Assembly (NCBI GenBank): GCA_938082855.1 | Contig: CALKCC010000049.1 | Coordinates: forward strand, 1-44,582 | Direction: 5' to 3' | Length of the DNA stretch: 44,582 nucleotides | Source of the DNA: an uncultured Pirellulaceae bacterium | GTDB lineage: Bacteria; Planctomycetota; Planctomycetia; Pirellulales; Pirellulaceae | Shown: positions 40,575 to 43,192 of the stretch, one piece after another | Numbering within the stretch: position 1 is the stretch's first letter | Layout: each line of letters opens with the position of its first letter | Position numbers and translations under genes: made by a program | Notes under the pieces: generated by a model | Database searches by the model: none | The model's input: the letters and a program-made list of their open reading frames with translations, nothing else | Told to the model about the DNA's origin: nothing

Positions 40575-41756
40575 ATGCTTTTGGCCTTGTTTTTCAGGGT
40601 AAAAAACAATTTTTTGCAAACGGATCGATTCGTGGCAAACGGCATTTTCGCCATTCCGATTAAACGTCTTGAACCAGCTGCCAGCGAGCAGTTGAATTTA
40701 TTTGACGAAGCCACTTCCTCCACACCTCAAGACGGACTCGAGCAGTTCATTTTTGGCCAGGAGAATGCCCCAGTGCGTCAGGCACTTGAGTGCGTCCTGG
40801 CACAGCAAACCATTGCCAGTCCGTTGGTCCTTTATGGAGCTACTGGGACTGGAAAATCGGTGCTAAGCCATACGCTACTCGCTCAGTGGTTCCGGCGATT
40901 TCCAGAGCAAAAGGCGTTGCACACGACGGGCACTGATTTCGCTCGAATGCATGCTCGAGCAGTCTACACTCATTCGATCAACGAATTTAGGCAAAGGTTT
41001 CTGGGCGTGCGTTTGTTGGTCATCGACGACTTACAAATCTTAAAAACCCGGTCTTCTGCTCAACAGATGCTGTGTAACATCATTGACCACTATCAAGCCA
41101 ACGACTGCATGTTGGTCGTTTGCCTGCCGACGCTGCCGACTCACATGACCGACTTTGATGACCGACTCTCCAGCCGGCTCATGGGCGGTTTGCAAATTGA
41201 ATTGAAGCCTCCCGGCAAAGATGCTCGCTCTGTGATTGTGGATCAATTGGCTCGAGAACATGGGGTGGAGCTGGACGAACCCACAAGAGATTCATTGGTG
41301 TTGGCTGGGGATAAAGAAAAGCCAAAGACCTTTCCCCAATTGCGTCAAACGATGATTCGCATGCGTAGCGAAACGGACCTGCGTTCTGGTCCTTACTCGG
41401 CATCCGATGTACAGGCTCTGCTTGACCAACAGCGTCAGACGCCAACGCCAGATATTAAGGGCATTGCTACCGCTGTAAGCAAACACTTGAACATTCGCCT
41501 CAACGACATGAAAAGCTCTGGCCGCCGCCAGTATGTGGTACGAGCTAGAGGTATTGCCATTTATCTCTGTCGACAATTTACATCTTCGAGCTTCGGTGAG
41601 ATTGGGCGTTACTTCGGAAAGCGTGACCATAGCACAATCATGCATGCTTATAAGCGTCTGGACGCATTGCAGCAGAAGGATGCTTCGATCCGCCTGGCAT
41701 TGGATGAAGTTATTGAGAAACTAAACAAAAAGTACCAACTGAATAAATCACTTTAA
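40575..41756 (+). CDS. dnaA: Chromosomal replication initiator DnaA, short form without domain I
   Basis: A 393-residue initiator, shorter than the usual about 450. The AAA+ domain has Walker A GATGTGKS (88-95), Walker B LLVIDDLQIL (147-156), and the arginine-finger region DDRLSSRLMGGL (R201). Domain IV carries the DNA-binding signature FTSSSFGEIGRYFGKRDHSTIMHAYKRL (335-362), so it should bind DnaA boxes. The usual N-terminal oligomerisation/helicase-loading domain I is not recognisable; only about 60 residues precede the AAA+ domain. They contain QLNLF (Q39-F43), which resembles the beta-clamp-binding motif of Hda. The start is uncertain: ATG 40575 or GTG 40632. It lies beside the probable origin and dnaN. 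Confidence 0.93.
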   Translation: MLLALFFRVKNNFLQTDRFVANGIFAIPIKRLEPAASEQLNLFDEATSSTPQDGLEQFIFGQENAPVRQALECVLAQQTIASPLVLYGATGTGKSVLSHTLLAQWFRRFPEQKALHTTGTDFARMHARAVYTHSINEFRQRFLGVRLLVIDDLQILKTRSSAQQMLCNIIDHYQANDCMLVVCLPTLPTHMTDFDDRLSSRLMGGLQIELKPPGKDARSVIVDQLAREHGVELDEPTRDSLVLAGDKEKPKTFPQLRQTMIRMRSETDLRSGPYSASDVQALLDQQRQTPTPDIKGIATAVSKHLNIRLNDMKSSGRRQYVVRARGIAIYLCRQFTSSSFGEIGRYFGKRDHSTIMHAYKRLDALQQKDASIRLALDEVIEKLNKKYQLNKSL

Positions 41757-42008
41757 CTGAACATCGAAATTCAATTTGGAGCATTGTGGAAAACCGGTCT
41801 ATTCAACCTCTATCGACGTCAGCACCTGCCCTGTTCATTCAGCCGCTTAAAAATCGGTGGACATTGTGGACAAGCTTTCGACATTCAAAGACGTTGAATA
41901 AACATTACATCGACCCGTTTTGCACACCACATATTTTGCTGTTTGGTGCTGAATAAACAGACTGAAACCGGCCTGGAAGACCGCTTGTCGACGTACTTCC
42001 GGACCACC

Positions 42009-42045
42009 TTTTTAATACGACTGTATTTAAAAAAATAATATATAA
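42009..42045. other. A/T-rich segment, candidate DNA-unwinding element
   Basis: Almost entirely A and T from 42021 to 42044 apart from one G, with a run of seven A at 42029-42035, in otherwise mixed-composition DNA. Its place beside the DnaA-box-like sites suits a duplex-unwinding element, and it may also carry the dnaN promoter. Confidence 0.45.
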
Positions 42046-42065
42046 CTCCCTCCAAATAACCAACG

Positions 42066-42070
42066 AAGGA
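42066..42070 (+). promoter_or_regulatory. Ribosome-binding site of dnaN
   Basis: AAGGA ends 6 nt before the ATG at 42077 and confirms the start. Confidence 0.65.
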
Positions 42071-42076
42071 TCGGAC

Positions 42077-43192
42077 ATGAAATTCACCTTTGATCGCGAG
42101 AAAATGCTGGCTGCCTTTCAGCCCGCCGCGTCGGTTGCCCCTTCTCGTAGCCCCAAGCCTATTTTGCAGTGTGTCAAATTGATTGGGACAGAGACGAGTG
42201 CCACGCTTATGGCCACGGATACTGAAGTAGGAATCCGGGTTGCCGTGGAAGGAGTCACCATGGAAGTCCCAGGTAATTTGGTGCTTCCGGTTGATTTGTT
42301 TGGTAACATCCTCCGCGAAAGCAACGATGATCAACTCACGGTAGCCGTGGATGATAAGGGGATTTCAGTAAAGGCTGGGTCCAACGTTTACAACCTTCCT
42401 TCCCAGAATGCCGACGAGTTTCCTGATGTTCAGGAGGTTGCCGGGGATGCTCGGATTGAAGTAGCAGCAGGCTTGTTTGGCGAGCTTGTCAAACGGACAA
42501 TTTTCGCTACAGACAATGAAAGCAGTCGTTATGCCTTAGGGGGAATACTTCTGGAAACAGAAGGAAAGAACTTAATCGCGGTTGGAACGGATGGGCGAAG
42601 ATTGGCAAAAATGGAAGGCCCAGTAGAAATCTCAGGCGAAATCCAGTTGGGCGAGTCTTCTACGATTGTTCCCACTCGTTCGATGAACTTGATTGCTCGA
42701 GCGTTAGGGGCCCCAGATAGCATTGTGCAAATCATCCCGAGTGACAATCAGCTAGCCTTCAAGACAGACACGGTGACACTGACTTCCAGGCTAGTAGAAG
42801 GTCGATTTCCTAAATGGAAGGACGTCTTCCCTAAGCGGACCGAAAGTATTGGGATCGAGCTGACAGCCGGAACGGTTTATGGTCGCTTGCGACAAGCATC
42901 AATCGTAGCCAACGATGAGAGTCGTGGGATTACCTTTACCTTTGGTAATGGGACCCTGGCGATGGACGCGACGGCCGCAGAACGCGGGCAAAGCCATACG
43001 GAGATGCCGATTTCCTATGAAGGAGCAGATGTCGCCGTTAGTCTGGACCACCGATATGTAGAACATTTCCTACGAGTGCTGGATTCGGAGACCAATTTTA
43101 CCTTTGATGTGGAAAACGATAAGGCTGCTGTCTTGCTATCTACGCAGGACGGTTATTCCTATATCATCATGCCATTGGCACGTGATCGGTAA
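42077..43192 (+). CDS. dnaN: DNA polymerase III beta subunit (sliding clamp)
   Basis: A 371-residue protein with the three-domain clamp fold of normal length. Characteristic segments are MKFTFDREKMLAAFQPAASV, PKPILQCVKLIG, TDTEVGIRV, SSRYALGGILLETEGKNLIAVGTDGRRLA, VEGRFPKWKDVFPK, and the C-terminal end YSYIIMPLARDR, where the usual MPM(R/K)L tail reads MPLAR. The homodimeric ring tethers polymerases and partner proteins to DNA. It is 320 bp after dnaA across the probable origin and 8 bp before the DUF721 gene, with which it is probably co-transcribed. Confidence 0.97.
   Translation: MKFTFDREKMLAAFQPAASVAPSRSPKPILQCVKLIGTETSATLMATDTEVGIRVAVEGVTMEVPGNLVLPVDLFGNILRESNDDQLTVAVDDKGISVKAGSNVYNLPSQNADEFPDVQEVAGDARIEVAAGLFGELVKRTIFATDNESSRYALGGILLETEGKNLIAVGTDGRRLAKMEGPVEISGEIQLGESSTIVPTRSMNLIARALGAPDSIVQIIPSDNQLAFKTDTVTLTSRLVEGRFPKWKDVFPKRTESIGIELTAGTVYGRLRQASIVANDESRGITFTFGNGTLAMDATAAERGQSHTEMPISYEGADVAVSLDHRYVEHFLRVLDSETNFTFDVENDKAAVLLSTQDGYSYIIMPLARDR

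Follow-up and report, generated by a model that had tools for sequence, protein, structure and literature searches.

A truncated, origin-linked DnaA and its full-length paralogue in a Pirellulaceae bacterium: a possible divided initiator with genus-specific clamp coupling

The DnaA encoded beside dnaN in the window (the whole stretch of 44,582 nucleotides that was analysed, contig C49 of a 4.16 Mb genome in 351 contigs, 85% complete) is a short form with a full-length paralogue elsewhere in the same genome. We propose, with a probability of roughly 45%, that the two constitute a divided DnaA pair: the short copy would read the origin, be tethered to the sliding clamp in this genus and there partner or restrain the long DnaA through RIDA-like control in trans. 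At the level of sequence, this reading builds on the pair itself, the missing domain I, opposite residue losses in the two copies, the origin linkage, the conservation of a tail motif and the predicted disorder of the tail that carries it. DnaA is usually regarded as a single multidomain protein responsible for origin recognition, origin opening and helicase recruitment. If the proposal is true, two paralogues share these jobs and the truncated one sits at the origin; an initiator can then be split, and through the genus-specific motif clamp-coupled control has arisen independently of the Hda family. Moreover, genomes of this group are rotated and annotated to a DnaA that possibly does not work alone.

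The short dnaA and the probable origin

The features of the window to which the analysis refers are as follows.

40632..41756, + strand: short DnaA, 374 aa, GTG start; predicted disordered tail, AAA+ domain III and domain IV, without domain I
40632..40661, + strand: MANGIFAIPI, N-terminal stretch of the FxIPL type, to which some other family members have a recognisable counterpart
40689..40703, + strand: QLNLF, predicted sliding-clamp-binding motif (CAG TTG AAT TTA TTT; residues 20-24 of the short DnaA)
41460..41657, + strand: domain IV of the short DnaA with canonical DnaA-box-reading residues (KRDHSTIMHA)
41757..42076, no strand: dnaA-dnaN gap, probable oriC, with the cumulative GC skew minimum, DnaA boxes and an AT-rich stretch
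41785..41793, - strand: DnaA box TTTTCCACA, equivalent position occupied in 5 of the 7 genus members with the gap read
41865..41873, - strand: DnaA box TTGTCCACA
41918..41926, + strand: DnaA-box-like TTTTGCACA, fitting TTWTNCACA
42010..42050, no strand: AT-rich stretch, candidate unwinding element
42077..43192, + strand: DnaN sliding clamp, whose peptide pocket is conserved relative to E. coli
43201..43557, + strand: DciA, helicase-loading protein

The genes are arranged in the order dnaA, dnaN, DciA and gyrB, the last of which was recognised by eye. Within the window the cumulative skew reaches its minimum at 41-42 kb. Skew along genomes was sampled from 20 kb stretches: in the relative G005 it changes sign at the short dnaA-dnaN locus, being negative before and positive after it, and on the closed chromosome of G035, which carries the short dnaA at its start, it is mostly positive to ~4.2 Mb and negative beyond, with no turn at the long dnaA at 3.53 Mb. 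The origin is probably located in the gap between the short dnaA and dnaN. A search of the corresponding gaps of the genus for DnaA boxes with one mismatch allowed returned none in two members; as the boxes are few and absent from these two, the evidence that they provide is modest. In the dnaA-dnaN gaps of L036 and L039 a run CTACTACTA adjoins the AT-rich stretch, and its opposite strand forms a TAG run resembling DnaA-trios.

Comparison with relatives placed the start of the short dnaA at the GTG at 40632 rather than at the listed ATG at 40575. This GTG is almost certainly the true start, because its equivalent is preceded, at a distance of 0-4 codons, by an in-frame stop in the relatives G002, G005 and G015 and the matching codon is GTG or TTG in the relatives compared. 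The product therefore comprises 374 aa with ~37 residues ahead of the AAA+ fold, and the ~60 residues assumed at this place in the original prediction have to be reduced accordingly, since the ATG at 40575 is not the start. In Pfam searches the product matched the DnaA ATPase domain (PF00308, 82.5 bits) and domain IV (PF08299, 84.2 bits) above the cut-offs and gave no match to DnaA_N (PF11638, domain I). With only these ~37 predicted disordered residues before the AAA+ domain, the earlier assertion that domain I is lacking holds. The protein scored 211.8 bits against TIGR00362, the equivalog model of full-length DnaA (cut-off 343.9), and 54 bits against the Hda family model TIGR03420, far under its cut-off of 194.8, and its predicted fold matches 8btg and 1l8q across domains III-IV. 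Its nearest named relatives are planctomycete MAGs, one of them labelled Rhodopirellula sp.

A stretch resembling MxNGhFxIP[LI] right at the GTG or TTG start is frequent among short DnaAs and is predicted to be disordered in the window protein. The FxIPL stretch was rejected as a feature common to all short DnaAs, the strict pattern being found in just 21 of 55.

A full-length paralogue and opposite residue losses

A second dnaA in the same genome, on contig C128, encodes domain I (PF11638), the ATPase domain and domain IV, and extends past the contig end. It carries Ala at the position of E. coli D433 and Met at that of Q408 (L002, 427-1716). A full-length DnaA with domain I is thus present, of the kind that the original prediction itself had named as incompatible with its model, and the supposition that helicase loading must do without domain I is not supported. 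A search of the genome for Hda gave nothing above the family cut-off; since the assembly is 85% complete, an Hda could be absent from the assembly only.

At least two DnaA domain IV matches were detected in 57 of 60 genomes of the same order, the exceptions being G004 (69% complete), G008 and G043. In G016, G031 and G036 one or two additional weak domain IV matches accompany the DnaA pair. In the tree, short and long copies of the order fall into separate groups, the short group with long branches and weak deep placement, and in every genus pair compared the AAA+ domain evolved faster in the short than in the long copy. Because a canonical full-length DnaA often occurs alongside a second DnaA with an altered domain IV signature elsewhere in the phylum, the loss of domain I seems, in a comparison that includes few genomes outside the order, to be specific to the class of the window.

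In E. coli DnaA, D433 takes part in reading the DnaA box and R334 in ATP hydrolysis. Residues were scored on one alignment with this protein for 58 short and 25 long DnaAs. The short copies have the equivalents of R407 (58/58) and of R399, D433 and H434 (57/58 each), and Walker A lysine and arginine finger R285 are kept in 55/58, while the sensor II arginine R334 is found in only 10/58, with Pro in 30/58. All 25 long copies possess K178, R285 and R334, none has D433, Q408 is replaced by Met throughout and position 439 is Ser or Ala. The two copies are worn in opposite ways: the short one keeps the box-reading residues and has dropped domain I and, in most cases, the sensor II arginine, and the long copy shows the reverse. 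The Ala and Met at the D433 and Q408 positions suggest that the full-length DnaA of contig C128 either binds DnaA boxes poorly or recognises another site.

Within the genus, Walker A, Walker B and the arginine finger of the short DnaAs are retained and R334 is replaced by Pro in 8/8, so the short protein is probably poorly suited to hydrolysing ATP itself. This bears on the idea, put forward in the original prediction, that one protein combines initiation with clamp-dependent self-inactivation and that DciA stands in for domain I in helicase loading. The location of the short dnaA at the probable origin, adjoining dnaN and DciA, and the retained box-reading residues would agree with it, but a full-length DnaA with domain I is present in the genome and self-hydrolysis is doubtful given the substitution in all genus members, and we consider this model very unlikely. 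Alternatively, the short DnaA may mainly act at its own locus, as a box-binding factor for transcription or autoregulation, with the motif merely placing it near forks. Such a role is in line with its rapid evolution, the missing domain I and sensor II, the almost invariant domain IV residues and the DnaA boxes adjoining the gene; the Walker A lysine and arginine finger, so widely kept, would however be needless for a plain DNA-binding factor, which renders this explanation quite unlikely.

The QLNLF motif and the sliding clamp

The pentapeptide QLNLF is encoded in the dnaA frame at 40689-40703, as had been claimed. All eight short DnaAs of the genus (members with the locus) contain Q[LM]xLF, in the variants QLNLF (two), QLELF (three), QMELF, QLDLF and QLKLF, with silent changes in the codons for Leu, Gln and Phe. 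Between the motif and Walker A the linker differs among members in both length and sequence, and the AAA+ domains of two members are only ~50% identical to those of the rest. From composition ~0.0004 matches per tail would be expected by chance, compared with the 8/8 observed. The pattern was found in 0/47 short DnaAs of other genera and in 0/25 long DnaAs. Conservation therefore stands for the genus and fails for planctomycetes at large, and a clamp motif confined to one genus cannot account for what short DnaAs do in general.

Residues 1-35 of the tail are predicted to be disordered (pLDDT <50), which implies that QLNLF is exposed and not buried in the fold. Retention in the genus and placement in an exposed, disordered tail lend weight to the likeness to the N-terminal motif of Hda drawn in the original prediction. 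The bacterial clamp-binding consensus is QL(S/D)LF (PMC9690074). The peptide pocket of DnaN retains the E. coli residues apart from His175, which is replaced by Arg, and Val360, replaced by Ile. Furthermore, DnaE of the same genome contains QQNLF near residue 932, the usual position of the polymerase clamp motif. These sequences make it likely that the tail of the short DnaA binds the clamp in this genus.

That Q[LM]xLF also occurs in unrelated proteins, for example a ThrRS-like protein, would suit a motif that binds a partner other than the clamp or a functionless, lineage-specific tail. Yet its presence in 8/8 members across ~50% AAA+ identity despite a rewritten linker, the QQNLF at the DnaE clamp site and the exposure of the tail make either possibility highly improbable. 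Other Q[LM]xLF proteins of a relative (ThrRS-like, PEP hydrolase-like, DUF1501 and TPR proteins) were considered as clamp clients and rejected; as these extra matches are four unrelated proteins, they provide no support for the clamp reading.

Proposed mechanism and relation to known systems

In the favoured mechanism the short, origin-linked DnaA would bind DnaA boxes by domain IV and join DnaA filaments through its AAA+ domain, and the full-length paralogue (C128) would supply it with helicase recruitment and regulated ATP hydrolysis. Devoid of domain I and sensor II, the short protein would therefore be dependent on this paralogue. In this genus its N-terminal tail would have gained a sliding-clamp motif, loaded clamps would capture it once initiation is done, and the clamp-held protein would apply its arginine finger to ATP-bound long DnaA at the fork in a RIDA-like reaction in trans. 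Clamp motif and arginine finger are present in the short DnaA and the sensor II residue in the long one; clamp binding, hetero-oligomers and the direction of control within the pair are what we infer. RIDA requires both the N-terminal motif of Hda and its arginine finger R153 (PMC3836487). Tentatively, the Planctomycetia initiator may even have been split into two obligate partners that have to co-assemble for replication to start: one lacks domain I and reads the origin, the other is an ATPase that recruits the helicase and whose DNA reading is altered. Hda-like clamp coupling would then have evolved independently in the origin-reading partner of one genus.

The same residues of the short DnaA fit clamp recruitment to the origin as well as inhibition, and this is the main alternative to the divided-initiator mechanism: the motif would bring DnaN to the origin or hold the short DnaA at the fork, aiding clamp loading or hand-off. 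The identical motif and origin linkage would be expected here too, activation and inhibition being indistinguishable from sequence. We know of no DnaA that recruits the clamp or aids its loading, which counts against such a positive role. The Hda precedent is inhibitory (PMC3836487), and we regard the alternative as unlikely.

In the open-access literature searched, outside of which most subscription journals lie, domain I loss, opposite residue losses and a clamp motif in such DnaAs are undescribed. The main text of a Planctopirus TraDIS study (PMC10632474), consulted for dnaA essentiality, does not mention dnaA. According to the available portions of the respective accounts, Kuenenia has three dnaA genes with the dnaN-linked one at a skew-defined origin (PMC7709395), and Chlamydiae possess DnaA1 and DnaA3 (PMC4989314). 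The pair described here resembles these PVC bacteria in the presence of more than one dnaA and, as regards Kuenenia, in a dnaN-linked copy at a skew-defined origin; it differs by the absence of domain I from one copy, by the opposite residue losses and by the clamp motif, none of which appear in those portions.

With bacterial DnaA (8btg, 1l8q, 2hcb; TIGR00362) the short protein shares AAA+ domain III, box-binding domain IV and a dnaN-adjacent position at the origin, but it is without domain I, has lost the sensor II arginine and is accompanied by a full-length paralogue elsewhere in the genome. Like Hda/HdaA of the RIDA system, it is a DnaA-related AAA+ protein with an arginine finger and, by prediction, an N-terminal clamp motif; unlike these, it carries a canonical domain IV and sits at the origin, adjoining dnaN.
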